Assembly: GCA_016786495.1 (NCBI GenBank)
Contig: JAEUUJ010000051.1
Span: 1 to 64,000, forward strand
DNA length: 64,000 nucleotides
Origin: Cyclobacteriaceae bacterium
GTDB taxonomy: Bacteria; Bacteroidota; Bacteroidia; Cytophagales; Cyclobacteriaceae
Reading direction: 5' to 3'
Shown here: positions 26,961 through 31,204 of the stretch, piece after piece
Numbering within the stretch: the stretch's first letter is position 1
Layout: each line of letters begins with the position of its first letter
Made by a program: the position numbers and the translations under genes
Notes under the pieces: generated by a model
The model's input: the letters and a program-made list of their open reading frames with translations, nothing else
Databases searched by the model: none
What the model was told of the DNA's origin: nothing

Positions 26961-26992
26961 AAGACTTGAGATTTGAGTATTCAGATATGAGA
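26961..26992. repeat. Heptad-repeat array, left flank of the S23 remnant
   Basis: A strict 7-bp periodicity fills the whole space between the acyl-CoA dehydrogenase start codon and the S23 remnant stop codon. Read from 26961 the units are AAGACTT, GAGATTT, GAGTATT, CAGATAT, each of form NAGNNNN. Compared from the outer ends inwards they pair with the reverse complement of the array on the right flank (AAGACGT, AAGATTC, AAGTAGT), so the two arrays are inverted. Confidence 0.7.
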
Positions 26993-27166
26993 TTATTCTT
27001 GTGATAGCTTTATTTGTAGTGCATAACTCATCGTTTGGATTTGATCTAATTGATCCAGCAGATGATCCAGCGAAGCATTAATTAAGTTCAGGTTTTTTTG
27101 CAATGCGTTATTGTGTTTGTAATTCATCGCCTTCTGCCAAATCTTTAATTCTTTGCGGTTGTGCAT
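26993..27166 (-). pseudogene. Internally deleted four-helix-bundle (S23-type) gene remnant
   Basis: An open 57-codon frame starting MHNRKELKIWQKAM and ending LDQIQTMSYALQIKLSQE. The first 14 residues match the start of the intact S23-type protein at 28405-28755 (MNNYKELKVWQKAV), and the last 23-30 residues match its C-terminal helix (ITEIQKMNWSLQKTLS). The central about 60 residues, including the conserved IRRSG..IA.NIAEG region, are absent. The frame is still open, so a short peptide could be made, but the four-helix fold cannot form. It sits between fadA-like and acyl-CoA dehydrogenase genes and is bounded by heptad arrays on both sides. Confidence 0.7.
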
Positions 27167-27201
27167 TTGCCTTGCGTCTTACTACTTGAATCTTACGTCT
27201 T
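27167..27201. repeat. Heptad-repeat array, right flank of the S23 remnant
   Basis: Five phase-locked 7-bp units of form NNNNCTT on the plus strand: TTGCCTT, GCGTCTT, ACTACTT, GAATCTT, ACGTCTT (27167-27201). The array reaches into the stop codon of the thiolase gene (27200-27202). Its reverse complement (AAGNNNN units) aligns with the left-flank array. Confidence 0.75.
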
Positions 27202-28372
27202 ATAGCATTTCATAAATACCCGCAACGCCCTGGCCTCCGCCAACGCAGGCCGTAACCATTCCGTACTTTTTATTCTGACGTTTTAATTCGTTGAACAACT
27301 GAACCGATAAGCGCGCACCGGAAGATCCGAGCGGGTGGCCTACCGCAATAGCGCCTCCGTTCACATTCAATTTCGATTTATCGATGTTCAATTCTTTCAC
27401 CACGGCTAGCGATTGAGCTGCGAATGCTTCATTCAATTCAATCAGATCAATGTCCTGCAGTTTCATATTCGCCAACTTGAGCGCCTTGGGAATTGCCGCT
27501 ACCGGACCGATACCCATAATTCTCGGATCAACACCCGCTGCTGCGTAACTCACCATCCGCGCAATCGGCTTCAAATTCAATTGCTTCAGAATTTTTTCGG
27601 ATACTACCATCACGAATGCCGCGCCATCGGAAGTCTGTGAAGAGTTGCCCGCGGTAACGGTTCCACCAGCTGCAAACACCGGCTTCAGTTTCGACAAGCC
27701 TTCAACGGTTGTATCCGCGCGGATACCCTCATCTTTCTCAACAACCCATTCCCGGGTTTTCTTTTTCATGTTCTCGTCCACATAAACCTCTTTCACGGTG
27801 ATCGGAACCACTTCGCCTTTGAATTTATTTTCTTTCCAGGCGGCAGCGGCCTTCATGTGCGATTCATAGGAAAACTGATCCTGCTCCTCACGGGAAATCT
27901 TGTATTGCTTCGAAACCTCCTCGGCCGTCAGGCCCATGCTGGTATAATAGGTCGGGTGGTTCTTGGCGATCTCGTAGTTCAACGCAGTGCGGAAACCCAT
28001 CACAGGTACCAGCGACATAGACTCCGTGCCTCCTGCGATGATTATATCGGCCTGACCGGCATGAATGCGGGCAGATGCAATCGCGATTGCCTCGACACCC
28101 GATCCGCAATATCGGTTGATCACCATTCCGGGTGCATCAAGCCCCAGCGCAAGCAACGAGATCATACGACCCATTTGCATGCCTTGTTCTGCTTCGGGAA
28201 CTGCGTTGCCAACGATCAGATCATCGATCATGTTGTTCTCAACGCCCGGAACAGACTTCACCAAATATTTAATCACATCCGAGGCAAGATCATCGGGACG
28301 CGTAAAACGAAATCCGCCTTTTTTTGCTTTACCTACTGCTGTTCTGAATCCAGCAACGATGTATGCGTTCAT
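27200..28372 (-). CDS. fadA: Acetyl-CoA C-acyltransferase (3-ketoacyl-CoA thiolase)
   Basis: A 390-residue thiolase catalysing the last beta-oxidation step. The acyl-accepting cysteine is in VINRYCGSGVEAIAIA (about residue 89). The thiolase signatures NVNGGAIAVGHPLGSSGAR (catalytic His near 345) and MVTACVGGGQGVAG (second Cys near 377) are both present, with NEAFAAQSLAV near 314. Length is typical. It is in a leftward operon with the hydratase/dehydrogenase fusion upstream and the acyl-CoA dehydrogenase downstream, giving a complete core of the cycle. Confidence 0.94.
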   Translation of the reverse strand: MNAYIVAGFRTAVGKAKKGGFRFTRPDDLASDVIKYLVKSVPGVENNMIDDLIVGNAVPEAEQGMQMGRMISLLALGLDAPGMVINRYCGSGVEAIAIASARIHAGQADIIIAGGTESMSLVPVMGFRTALNYEIAKNHPTYYTSMGLTAEEVSKQYKISREEQDQFSYESHMKAAAAWKENKFKGEVVPITVKEVYVDENMKKKTREWVVEKDEGIRADTTVEGLSKLKPVFAAGGTVTAGNSSQTSDGAAFVMVVSEKILKQLNLKPIARMVSYAAAGVDPRIMGIGPVAAIPKALKLANMKLQDIDLIELNEAFAAQSLAVVKELNIDKSKLNVNGGAIAVGHPLGSSGARLSVQLFNELKRQNKKYGMVTACVGGGQGVAGIYEML

Positions 28373-28405
28373 AGTGTTAGTAGTTAGTCTTTAGTTAATA
28401 GTAAT
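28372..28405. repeat. Heptad-repeat array, left flank of the intact S23 gene
   Basis: TAGT recurs at 28378, 28385, 28392 and 28399, exactly 7 bp apart, with a preceding TAGT at 28372 offset by 6. The array starts on the first base of the thiolase start codon region and runs into the S23 stop codon (28405-28407). Units ending in AGT match the reverse complement of the right-flank array. Confidence 0.75.
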
Positions 28406-28755
28406 TAGCTCAAGGTTTTTTGAAGAGACCAGTTCATTTTTTGTATCTCTGTTATTTCCCCTTGAAGTGTATCTAATGTTTCCTTGTCTAAAAATTCGAT
28501 TCGGTTCGCAATTATCAATTGCGTTTCCAACTCACAGATTGATCCATTTGAAATACTCAAAAAGTTCTTGAAATCCTTTTTTGAATTTCTACCTGCACCT
28601 TCAGCGATGTTTGACGCGATTGAGACGCCAGACCTTCTTATTTGATTTGTTAGGGCGTACTCTTCTTCACGTGGAAATGCGGATGTTGTGTTGTAAATCT
28701 TAACGGCCAAGTCAACCGCCTTCTGCCAAACCTTAAGTTCTTTATAGTTATTCAT
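28405..28755 (-). CDS. Four-helix-bundle (S23/IVS-type) protein
   Basis: A 116-residue protein of the 23S rRNA intervening-sequence (S23) family: KELKVWQKAVDLAVKIY in helix 1, FPREEEYALTNQIRRSGVSI, then ASNIAEGAGR near residue 60 and the C-terminal helix EITEIQKMNWSLQKTLS. The fold is a homopentameric four-helix bundle related to the Avd accessory protein of diversity-generating retroelements (family knowledge). It is not within rRNA here but inserted between fadB-like and fadA genes of one operon. Flanking sequence on both sides is a heptad-repeat array. Its role in cells is not known. Confidence 0.9.
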   Translation of the reverse strand: MNNYKELKVWQKAVDLAVKIYNTTSAFPREEEYALTNQIRRSGVSIASNIAEGAGRNSKKDFKNFLSISNGSICELETQLIIANRIEFLDKETLDTLQGEITEIQKMNWSLQKTLS

Positions 28756-28761
28756 GCTTAA

Positions 28762-28810
28762 ACTCTTTACTCAGGACTATAGACTCAGGACTATAGACTC
28801 AATACTAATT
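28762..28810. repeat. Heptad-repeat array, right flank of the intact S23 gene
   Basis: Seven consecutive 7-bp units each starting with ACT: ACTCTTT, ACTCAGG, ACTATAG, ACTCAGG, ACTATAG, ACTCAAT, ACTAATT. The two ACTCAGG+ACTATAG pairs form an exact 14-bp tandem repeat (28769-28796). The last unit includes the stop codon of the fadB-like gene (28805-28807). On the minus strand the units read NNNNAGT, matching the left-flank array. Confidence 0.8.
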
Positions 28811-31204
28811 CCTCAGAGGCTTACCCCCGGTTAATATCGATTGTATCCTCTCAAGTGTTTTCCGTTCACCGGTGAGTGACAGGAACGCTTCACGCTCCAG
28901 GTCAAGGAGGTACTGCTCACTCACTTCCTGCGGAGACGTTAAGTCGCCACCGCACATAACGTTTGCAATCCACCGGGCAATTTTTGCATCGTGTTCCGAA
29001 ATGAATCGGCCCATCTGCATTCCCTGCAATCCGGCCATGAATAATGCTTGTCCGGTTCTACCCTGAACTTTGATGTTCTTTGCCTGCTGAGGCATGGTGT
29101 AACCTGCTTCCACCAAATCCAGAACAGCCTGTTTCGCATCCGCGATTTGGCGGTCCTTGTTCATGGTTAAACGGTCAACCTTTTTCAGGATGCCCAGCTC
29201 ACGCGCTTCCTCGGCTGAGGTTGCAACCTTTGCTGTCGCGATGGTCATGAACGCATTTTGCAGTGCGTTCAATTCTACGTCACCTTCCTGCAACGAATCG
29301 CTCACGCGTTTCGCAAATTCTTTTGTTCCACCTCCGCCAGGGATCAAGCCCACACCAACTTCCACAAGGCCGATATAGGTTTCCGCAGCCGCCTGTGCGA
29401 TGTCGGCATGCATGGTCATCTCACAACCTCCTCCCAGTGTTCTTCCTTGTGGCGCAACAACCACCGGAATGGATGAGTAGCGTAAGCGCATTACCGAATT
29501 CTGGAATGCACGGATCATGAAATCGATTTCATCATAATCCTGTTCAATGGCGTACATAAATACAAGCCCAAGGTTTGCGCCCAGCGAGAAGTCAGGTCCC
29601 TGATGACCGACCACCAAACCTTTGTAATCTTTTTCTGCCAGATCGATCGCTTTATTCAAGCCTTCGATCACGCTGCTGCCGAGGGTATAGCTTTTTGAAT
29701 GCCACGAGAAGTTTAGCACGCCATCGCCAATGTCGGTAACTCTTGATTCGGCATTTTTCCATACCACGCTGTCCTTTTTGCTTTCGAGTATGATAAACGC
29801 CTCACGACCCGGAATTGCTTTGTAGGATTTTGTCGGGATATCGTAATATTTCTTTACACCGTTCTCAACTTTGTAGAACAACTTGTTGCCGGCATCCAGC
29901 ATTTCATAAACCCAGTCGTTGGGTTTGTAGCCGGCGGCTTCCATGAGCGGAATGCTCTTTTCAACGCCTACGGCATCCCAGGTTTCAAATGGACCGATGT
30001 CCCAGCCAAAGCCTCCGCTCACGGCATCATCGATACGGAACAATTCATCACTGATCTCAGGGATGCGATGGCTTACGTACTTGAACAAATCGTAAAACAT
30101 GTCGCGGTAGAAATCTCCCGCCTTGTCTTTGCCTGCGAGCAACACTTTGAACCGATCTTTGAGGTTGTCGATCGTTTTCGTGGTTTCAAGCGTTGCAAAT
30201 TTTGCTTTTGCCTTTTCCTTGTACTCGAGTGTTTTGAGATCGAGTGTCAGAATTTCGGTTTGACCTTTAGCATTCTTGGTTTTCTTGTAAAAGCCCTGAC
30301 CGGTTTTATCCCCAAGCCACTTGTTTTGTTCCAGCTTGGCAACAACTTCCGGAAGTTTAAACATTTCGCGCCCTTCATCGTTCGGCAGACCCGCATAGAG
30401 GTTGTTGGCAACCTTCACCAGTGTATCCAACCCGACAACATCTGACGTACGGAACGTTGCCGACTTTGGCCGGCCGATAACCGGTCCGGTAAGTTTATCG
30501 ACTTCGTCTACGTTTAGATCGAACTTGCGCATTGAGTCAATCACTTTCAATAATCCGTAAACACCAACGCGGTTTCCGATAAACGCAGGCGTGTCTTTAC
30601 ACAACACCGTTGTCTTTCCGAGGAACAGGTCACCGTAGTGCATGAGAAACTTCGTCACTTCCGCATCGGTCTTTGCGGTCGGGATAATTTCGAGAAGCTT
30701 CAAGTAGCGTGGCGGATTGAAGAAGTGAGTTCCCGCAAAGTGCTTCTGAAAATCTTCACTGCGTCCATCTGCCATCAAATGGATCGGGATACCGGACGTG
30801 TTGGATGTGATAAGCGTTCCGGGCGTGCGATACTTCTCTACTTCTTCGTAAACTTTTTTCTTGATGTCAAGATTTTCAACAACTACCTCAATGATCCAGT
30901 CGTAGTGTTTAATCTTTGGCATATCATCCGCAAAATTTCCCAGCGTGATCCGCGAGGCAAATTTCTTGCTGAACAATGCGGCCGGGCTCGACTTCAAAGT
31001 CGATTCGAACGCTGCGGTCACAATCCGGTTTTTCACCGCAGGATGATCGAGCGTTAAATTTTTCTTCTTCTCCTCTTCCGTTAATTCTCTGGGGGCAATG
31101 TCGAGTAGCAATACTTGCACACCGATGTTGGCGAAGTGACAGGCAATGCGGGAGCCCATGATGCCTGAACCCAGAACTGCAACTTTGCGGATTGATCTAT
31201 TCAT
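28805..31204 (-). CDS. 3-hydroxyacyl-CoA dehydrogenase / enoyl-CoA hydratase fusion (FadB/FadJ-like)
   Basis: A 799-residue bifunctional beta-oxidation enzyme with the dehydrogenase half first, opposite to the classical E. coli order. The NAD site VAVLGSGIMGSRIACHFA is at residues 8-25, the dehydrogenase signature near 165-210 (HFFNPPRYLKLLEIIPT, DTPAFIGNRVGVY). The C-terminal crotonase domain near 500-720 has the oxyanion-hole and catalytic regions (LGANLGLVFMYA, GRTLGGGCEMTMHADI, VGVGLIPGGGGTKEF). It converts enoyl-CoA to 3-ketoacyl-CoA for the downstream thiolase. Confidence 0.92.
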   Translation of the reverse strand: MNRSIRKVAVLGSGIMGSRIACHFANIGVQVLLLDIAPRELTEEEKKKNLTLDHPAVKNRIVTAAFESTLKSSPAALFSKKFASRITLGNFADDMPKIKHYDWIIEVVVENLDIKKKVYEEVEKYRTPGTLITSNTSGIPIHLMADGRSEDFQKHFAGTHFFNPPRYLKLLEIIPTAKTDAEVTKFLMHYGDLFLGKTTVLCKDTPAFIGNRVGVYGLLKVIDSMRKFDLNVDEVDKLTGPVIGRPKSATFRTSDVVGLDTLVKVANNLYAGLPNDEGREMFKLPEVVAKLEQNKWLGDKTGQGFYKKTKNAKGQTEILTLDLKTLEYKEKAKAKFATLETTKTIDNLKDRFKVLLAGKDKAGDFYRDMFYDLFKYVSHRIPEISDELFRIDDAVSGGFGWDIGPFETWDAVGVEKSIPLMEAAGYKPNDWVYEMLDAGNKLFYKVENGVKKYYDIPTKSYKAIPGREAFIILESKKDSVVWKNAESRVTDIGDGVLNFSWHSKSYTLGSSVIEGLNKAIDLAEKDYKGLVVGHQGPDFSLGANLGLVFMYAIEQDYDEIDFMIRAFQNSVMRLRYSSIPVVVAPQGRTLGGGCEMTMHADIAQAAAETYIGLVEVGVGLIPGGGGTKEFAKRVSDSLQEGDVELNALQNAFMTIATAKVATSAEEARELGILKKVDRLTMNKDRQIADAKQAVLDLVEAGYTMPQQAKNIKVQGRTGQALFMAGLQGMQMGRFISEHDAKIARWIANVMCGGDLTSPQEVSEQYLLDLEREAFLSLTGERKTLERIQSILTGGKPLRN

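Follow-up and report, generated by a model that had tools for sequence, protein, structure and literature searches.

Why does a small gene for an S23-type four-helix-bundle protein, bounded on both sides by tandem 7-bp repeats, lie between two genes of a β-oxidation operon? The question is raised by a stretch of 64,000 nucleotides (hereafter the window; contig JAEUUJ010000051.1, positions 1 to 64,000 of the forward strand) from a Cyclobacteriaceae bacterium (assembly GCA_016786495.1). We consider it likely that this locus belongs to a widespread family of minimal insertion elements resembling REPIN/RAYT systems, and that the S23 protein, a pentamer, probably recognizes its own heptads. The element class is real and widespread and has apparently not been recognized so far, and its insertion is supported by comparison among genomes. 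In the following, G numbers denote genomes (G000 is the 4.0-Mb genome of the window itself, and G009 that of a near relative) and L numbers denote extracted loci. The features of the window that matter here are:

28405–28755, minus strand: S23-type four-helix-bundle gene (116 aa; PF05635 / TIGR02436)
28762–28810, minus strand: 5′-side arm of the S23 gene, with seven NNNNAGT units (read on the minus strand) and the fadB-like stop codon (28805–28807) within the outermost one
28376–28408, plus strand: 3′-side arm of the S23 gene, with (T)TAGTNN units that point inward when read on the plus strand and extend to the thiolase start codon (period-7 score 12)
28373–28807, minus strand: whole element, delimited by the flanking start and stop codons and not by mapped ends
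26961–27199, minus strand: second S23 element, decayed, between the thiolase and acyl-CoA dehydrogenase genes, with an internal deletion in the S23 frame
27200–28372, minus strand: thiolase (acetyl-CoA acyltransferase), the host gene downstream of the element (name from sequence)
28805–31204, minus strand: fadB-like 3-hydroxyacyl-CoA dehydrogenase/enoyl-CoA hydratase, the host gene upstream of the element (name from sequence)

The repeats reported in a preliminary description of this DNA were confirmed exactly by base reading. ACT starts seven in-register units (28762, 28769, 28776, 28783, 28790, 28797, and 28804), and TAGT occurs at the four left-hand positions given there (28378, 28385, 28392, and 28399) and also at 28372. 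As had likewise been described, the arrays reach both host genes: the left one adjoins the thiolase start codon (28370–28372), and the fadB-like stop codon sits within the last right-hand unit. The interpretation of the ends as inverted repeats agrees with the match between the two 90-bp flanks, which scored 11.5 in inverted versus 7 in direct orientation, and the top-scoring Tandem Repeats Finder row of the whole window is 28769–28801 (score 66). The S23-type identity of the gene is borne out by matches above the curated cut-offs of PF05635 (141.2 bits versus 33.8; E 1.7e-41) and TIGR02436 (136.2 versus 24). In the decayed element, arms were recognized by eye at 27169–27199 and 26961–26994 (period-7 scores 5 and 9). 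The 5-unit pattern AGTN4 has 12 occurrences at five places in the 4.0 Mb of G000, and its backward control has none. The orthologous element of G009, adjacent to a thiolase whose protein is 100% identical to that of the window, has 14 bp (two units) fewer in its 5′-side arm, indicating that array length changes by whole units. An open reading frame of the S23 type between inverted repeats is a feature of the intervening sequence (IVS) elements of 23S rRNA; the window element is located in an operon and not in a 23S rRNA gene.

Periodicity and inverted matching of the flanks at other S23 loci, two of the checks named in the preliminary description, did not refute its interpretation. S23 matches were present in all 17 genus genomes (92 in total, with 72 places fetched). 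The 73 genus loci with both flanks had mean period-7 run scores of 9.75 upstream and 8.81 downstream, while other periods mostly scored approximately 3–4, with 14 and 21 raised as harmonics and 8 (5.33/4.79), 15, and 16 mildly raised. These loci collapse to 26 sites. At a score of at least 8, 18 sites had period-7 arrays and all 26 had arrays of period 7 or 8, compared to seven sites for any of the periods 5, 6, 9, 10, and 11; at a score of 10, the corresponding numbers were 16, 23, and 2. The inverted match between a locus's own flanks exceeded the 95th percentile of mismatched loci at 42 of the 73 loci, and on average at approximately 20.5 of the 26 sites if one locus was drawn per site (1.3 expected). 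Some S23 elements are built of 8-bp units (L120, L123, and L125, and 11 of the 26 genus sites, some of which also have period 7), and a mixed 7 + 8 (15-bp) spacing was found in L028 and L029.

In a wider sample of 148 genomes from the window's phylum, 116 had an S23 match (up to 16 per genome). The wide set consisted of the 80 best relatives of the window protein and 29 loci from the best matches of these 148 genomes, and is therefore biased to close relatives; many of its members come from metagenome-assembled genomes. An array of period 7 or 8 with a score of at least 8 was present at 95 of 106 wide loci, and 79 of the 106 had an arm with a period-7 score of at least 10. Inverted matching passed the same test at 18 of 29 loci of the phylum sample, at 26 of 56 loci from Bacteroidota, and at 14 of 23 loci assigned to other groups by title, which include Acidobacteria, Clostridia, Nitrospirae, Deltaproteobacteria, seven Fibrobacter, Planctomycetes, Opitutae, Kaiserbacteria, and Proteobacteria. 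Across the 179 genus and wide loci, 181 of 358 arms had a period-7 score of at least 10, as opposed to 11 of 4000 random and 12 of 561 ORF-end (open reading frame) control windows, both taken from G000 only; other periods at the same 358 arms gave 25 for period 8 and 0–6 for the remainder. In 464 kb of G000, 11 period-7 arrays reached a score of 10, three of which were S23 arms, while nine other periods gave 0–8 and shuffled sequence gave 3. The genome-wide excess of period 7 is thus small; it is concentrated at S23 genes.

S23 genes are also found on plasmids, with matches in 40 of 72,556 records, mostly cyanobacterial among the matches listed. Eight of ten plasmid S23 loci had a period-7 score of at least 10 on at least one side (L251 and L259 did not). 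The inverted match was clearly higher than the direct one in seven (L253–L259), about equal in L251, and lower in L250 and L252. The window protein had no tblastn match in 50,697 phage records. For E. coli, a DNA-level search gave no match, and a protein-level search was not made. As S23 genes located in rRNA were also sought, six 23S words were matched against the 179 loci with no hit (no Rfam search was made), and every wide locus with enough flank had an open frame of at least 110 aa on either side.

The arms share a common build. A period-7 score of at least 8 was reached by 221 of the 358 arms, with a median of 4.6 units and a mode of 4–5. AG is the conserved dimer in 145 of these 221 arms (about two thirds), and the arms are polar: read inward, the ratio of AG to CT was 469:69 in 108 upstream arms and 385:62 in 97 downstream arms. 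The remainder of the unit is particular to the locus, for example NNNNAGT in the window, TTAGAAN in L002, GTTAATG in L003, and ATTAGGC in L004. Neighboring genes were called by the longest open frame, which allowed 153 of the 179 loci to be scored. Both neighbors lie on the S23 strand at 134 of these and both on the opposite strand at four, and 65 of 94 same-strand upstream arrays begin between −10 and +6 nt from the upstream stop codon. Since the elements lie in transcribed DNA, usually in sense orientation just after one operon gene ends and ahead of the next start codon, S23 is probably expressed from the host operon. Stop codons supplied by the element in all three frames were considered as a reason for the unit and dismissed as too weak an effect (a fraction of 0.44 of the upstream arms versus 0.33 after column permutation). 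In L007 (1440–1545), two unlike heptad arrays, one AAATCTG-like and one ACTACTA-like, were seen by eye side by side in one intergenic region.

The units follow the lineage of the S23 gene. The correlation was restricted to pairs from different sites, because at a shared site the 90-bp flanks contain homologous coding sequence. In these pairs, units become less similar with increasing distance in the protein tree (r −0.18, with none of 2000 label permutations as low). Six pairs of S23 genes of at least 70% identity in different contexts, five of which share one member, had an arm similarity of 18.4 versus approximately 8. Furthermore, L052 occupies a site common to one S23 clade but carries the unit that its own clade has at other sites.

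Arrays of such units also occur without an S23 gene. In G000, position 3990 of L224, which is outside all four S23 places of this genome, shares a 16-nt stretch with the arm of L003, with a weak inverted partner (8.5). Four S23-derived units were searched in eight outside genomes, allowing up to two mismatches; one array can give several overlapping matches, so that there are fewer arrays than matches. The Clostridia unit (from G169) had 125 matches at home, 16 in Fibrobacter, and 3, 1, and 0 elsewhere, and the deltaproteobacterial unit (from G165) had 51 at home, three in one other genome, and none in six. The Brevundimonas unit had 11 matches at home and 31 in Fibrobacter, and a similar unit is present at S23 loci of other Fibrobacter genomes (L188 and L205); the Mariprofundus unit had eight at home and eight in Brevundimonas. 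According to these counts, two of the four units are clearly genome-specific. S23 was contained in three of the 54 loci fetched by the unit searches, two of the three being the Mariprofundus S23 locus itself, and in one of eight stretches from G169, which was the query's own locus. Where neighboring arrays in G169 lie no more than 200 bp apart, the pair is inward in five cases, outward in none, and same-strand in two (47 array clusters among the matches listed). The inward S23-less pairs in G169 and G163 are inverted non-coding copies that share the terminal sequence of the gene.

The scarcity of S23 at these loci (3 of 54) is what would be expected if S23 were a passenger, with the inverted heptad arrays forming a separate dispersed repeat that is moved by a host or transposon enzyme and has captured S23 as cargo. 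S23 also has no recognized catalytic motif, as this explanation would have it. However, arrays accompany S23 at all 26 genus sites and at 95 of the 106 wide loci, and cargo would not be so constant; in addition, the units follow the S23 lineage and the gene is conserved by selection. We regard a passenger role as quite improbable.

Evidence for insertion comes from comparing the same gene junctions among genomes. Of 16 genomes seen at the murD–ftsW junction, 13 have murD and ftsW overlapping by ATGA, while G000 and G009 carry an S23 element between them. In G013, murD has the usual end, but a short tandem duplication shifts its frame, so that it ends 12 bp before ftsW. The murD product ends in KLKLEHSI (stop) in G000 and G009 versus KLKKEKENQLV (stop) in G004, whose FtsW is 96% identical, indicating that the S23 element replaced the last murD codons. 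Host codons were thus replaced rather than duplicated in this single clean case. The host sequence at this junction in G004, GTTGAAGAAAGAA, resembles the arm GTTGAAGTTAGAA, which as one case may be due to chance.

The junction of the window, between fadB and thiolase, carries an S23 element in five of 16 genomes seen, an S23-less array in seven, remnants recognized by eye in two (G008 and G013), and no clear array in two (G012 and G015). The seven S23-less arrays had period-7 scores of 8–22, and in six of them the inverted match exceeded all 30 shuffles. The preliminary description had held that finding the same spacer in strains that never had the gene would speak against a mobile element. 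The closest genome without S23 at this junction, G004 (thiolase 99% identical), has instead an S23-less inverted heptad element with a different unit. At the thiolase–acyl-CoA dehydrogenase junction we found nine S23 elements, one with an apparently broken frame (no interruption was noted in the S23 genes of G016, G001, G006, G003, G007, G011, G002, and G010), two decayed ones, two S23-less ones whose inverted match was above all shuffles (G008 and G014), and four other cases (G004, G012, G013, and G015). In the protein tree, three S23 clades occur at this junction and two at fadB–thiolase, each with its own unit, although some deep nodes are weakly supported. Mobility is supported, at the level of sequence comparison, by these different clades at the same junctions, by the murD–ftsW element, and by the S23-less arrays of an S23 gene's own unit. 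Of the earlier proposal of a minimal mobile element with heptad arrays as termini, the mobility is supported; the unit is particular to each S23 lineage and does not represent one fixed terminus.

The same junctions bear on another explanation, in which S23 is a sequence-specific RNA- or DNA-binding regulator and the heptads are operators that grew by slippage, autoregulate S23, and act in trans, so that the dispersed arrays represent a regulon and not insertions. Several observations fit: the S23 leader and the upstream arm overlap, the arrays of G000 and G009 differ in length by whole units, purifying selection acts on S23, S23-less arrays of its own unit exist in the same genome, and translational control by TAACTGA repeats has been proposed (MacGregor 2015, PMC4679880). 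Regulation nevertheless leaves unexplained why an S23 gene with arms lies at murD–ftsW where relatives have overlapping genes, and why different S23 clades share one junction. It also does not explain the usual inversion of the arms, since a protein that binds single-stranded RNA would meet just one of the two arms on the sense strand. We therefore consider this explanation unlikely.

The orthologous S23 genes L004 and L068 of G000 and G009, at one site, differ by a dS of 0.66, versus 0.10–0.15 at three other sites, as if one of them had been replaced. On three cyanobacterial plasmids (L250, L254, and L259), S23 genes lie between cas6 and cas4, in a type I-D context, and between cas10 and cmr3. 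The cas6–cas4 spacer measures 5 and 23 bp in two relatives; in Pseudanabaena ABRG5-3 it holds a solo heptad array. The right arm of L254 extends into the annotated start of cas4, which suggests that the start codon is wrongly annotated. A Dolichospermum plasmid, 99.3% identical to Anabaena 90 around cas6/cas4 and S23-less, was rejected as a clean empty site, as it has another insert there (L314, 620–870) with the different inverted repeat GTTGGGTT...AACCCAAC.

The S23 protein itself is maintained by selection. The dN/dS ratio was 0.02–0.19 in 17 of 18 S23 pairs (one pair was saturated), and a value of 0.12 for the window gene and its G009 orthologue indicates purifying selection. The structures 2gsc (XCC0516 of Xanthomonas campestris) and 2rld in the Protein Data Bank contain five chains each. 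The phrase ‘five four-helix bundles’ appears in the title of the paper on 2gsc. Over 175 proteins, positions 38, 41, 45, 49, 52, and 75 (Q38, R41, S45, N49, E52, and E75 in window numbering) are 91–99% conserved. Judged by their spacing, Q38, R41, S45, N49, and E52 would lie on one helix face and may form, together with E75, an active or base-reading site.

A Pfam search with the window protein gave only PF05635 and bAvd. The relationship of S23 to Avd, the accessory protein of diversity-generating retroelements, that was stated in the preliminary description was recovered (PF22296, 1.4e-6; DivGenRetAVD, 3.3e-7) and is also stated in the literature (PMC10053308), but the window protein remains below the cut-offs of Avd (30.6 versus 80 bits) and bAvd (29.2 versus 40 bits). 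This relationship, along with the sense orientation within operons, would fit an insertion at the RNA level in which an Avd-like S23 cooperates in trans with a reverse transcriptase. Yet an RVT_1 match was present in only three of the 17 genus genomes; G000 is among the 14 without one, as are the S23-rich G003 (a single contig with 10 S23 matches) and G016 (likewise a single contig, with seven). A reverse-transcriptase partner was judged unlikely in the genus on these grounds, and we consider retro-insertion highly improbable.

Our preferred explanation remains a minimal insertion element of the REPIN/RAYT type. RAYTs are HUH/Y1 transposases that act on palindromic repetitive extragenic palindromes (REPs). 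S23 elements share with REPIN/RAYT systems one conserved protein gene accompanied by many short inverted non-coding copies that have its flanks and are dispersed between genes; in contrast, S23 shows no HUH/Y1 domain, and the ends of its elements are heptad arrays. S23 elements work like a REPIN/RAYT pair but are not members of that family. In its complete form, the element consists of one S23 gene flanked by two arms that point inward, each with approximately 4–5 heptads (or, in some elements, 8-bp units). The arm length of about five units, the frequent AG core, inverted pairing, and a lineage-specific unit would all fit a pentamer that reads one heptad per subunit at each end and thus serves as an end-recognition protein. 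The S23 pentamer may accordingly bind its own heptads with approximately one unit per subunit and bring both ends together. S23-less copies would be mobilized in trans, as REPINs are by RAYTs, and strand transfer might be carried out by host replication or repair at a partly similar sequence. Reliance on transcription of the host operon would account for the sense orientation.

Several observations weigh against this explanation. A near-identical empty site for the window junction was not found. No target-site duplication was noticed, and a systematic search for one was not made. The predicted RNA fold of the window element is no better than that of shuffles (z −0.38), a result that also led us to discard an RNA hairpin as its main feature. 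The correlation between unit and protein is weak (r = −0.18). The permutation behind it takes no account of relatedness, and its close pairs amount to approximately five cases. Arms can diverge within a locus, as at site 2. No recent duplicate was found among the genus loci read, in which the closest same-genome pair is 59% identical, implying that movement is rare or mostly consists of transfer between lineages. The Mariprofundus unit is equally frequent in Brevundimonas, and the Brevundimonas unit is more common in Fibrobacter than at home. Backward-pattern controls were mostly 0 but reached 137 in G169, 41 in G164, and 12 in G165, because a reversed heptad can be the unit of another genome. 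Two of the ten plasmid S23 loci lack period-7 arms, and two of the eight with arms match better in direct than in inverted orientation. Finally, Pfam recognizes no nuclease, transposase, or integrase and no Y1/HUH domain in the window protein, and with a median pI of 8.6 (6.3 in the window protein) S23 proteins are not strongly basic.

Among known systems, 23S rRNA IVS elements of the Coxiella and Leptospira type resemble the window element in having an S23 ORF in an insertion bounded by inverted repeats within transcribed DNA. They differ in that the window element lies in an mRNA operon, has tandem heptads on both sides, and is accompanied by S23-less arrays of its own unit elsewhere in the genome. 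IVS elements are excised by RNase III; the hairpin predicted for the window element is, as given above, no stronger than those of shuffles. For the Coxiella IVS, three tandem heptamers upstream of S23p, strain-variable in number, and terminal inverted repeats have been described, and the heptamers are not generalized in the accessible text (PMC4990558). In bacteria of the candidate phyla radiation (CPR), S23 ORFs occur in inserts of 16S and 23S rRNA (PMC11270868), and four helix bundle genes are listed in predicted phage regions (PMC5524665). Genes for S23 in cas loci have been discussed in terms of a CRISPR-associated function (PMC3936711), and the legend of a CRISPR figure mentions S23 (PMC10910872). 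Avd of diversity-generating retroelements is related to S23 by profile, but the cut-offs and the missing RVT_1 match in G000 given above set S23 apart.

Miniature inverted-repeat transposable elements (MITEs) are likewise short non-coding inverted-repeat elements seemingly derived from a coding element. S23 elements differ from them in having no recognized transposase-encoding parent, no fixed terminal sequence, and no target-site duplication that was noticed.

Heptamer repeats have been published for several other bacteria. In Xanthomonas, GGGAATC heptads form 70–75 inverted pairs with a preference for four units, lie between aligned genes and on the coding strand near stop codons, and are generally not associated with mobile elements (Rehm et al., PMC4692102); they are also reported from Nostoc in the same paper. 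Xanthomonas campestris, the source of the S23 structure 2gsc, is among the species with published heptamer repeats. For Beggiatoaceae, MacGregor (PMC4679880) considered that the TAACTGA-binding protein might itself be a mobile element and named the S1, Csp, and Csr families as candidates, and in Geobacter heptanucleotide elements of four and five units were reported (PMC2700814). All of these resemble S23 arms in being tandem 7-bp units that are mostly intergenic, but the accessible texts describe them as quadruplex, regulatory, or simple repeats, without a tie to S23. In the literature searched, which had most subscription journals outside its range, no paper was found that ties S23 genes generally to inverted heptads.

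Tentatively, and with somewhat less than even confidence, we extend the proposal to the whole family. S23/PF05635 proteins might provide both recognition and mobility for a class of bacterial mobile elements that have no transposase, integrase, or reverse transcriptase. Their pentamer would read AG-containing, lineage-specific heptads and spread S23-less inverted pairs in trans. The heptamers of Xanthomonas, Nostoc, Beggiatoaceae, and Geobacter, the rRNA IVS, and the S23 genes of cas loci could then all be products of one system.

An element without a recognized recombinase raises the question of its insertion route. Several published heptamer repeat families could be non-autonomous copies of S23 elements. 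S23 genes in conserved operons, including CRISPR-cas operons, should be interpreted with caution and not be read as functional partners of their neighbors. Despite solved structures, the functional description of S23 in Pfam and NCBIfam stops at ‘intervening sequence protein’ or ‘four helix bundle protein’, and the connection of S23 to inverted heptads provides the family with a testable ligand and role.

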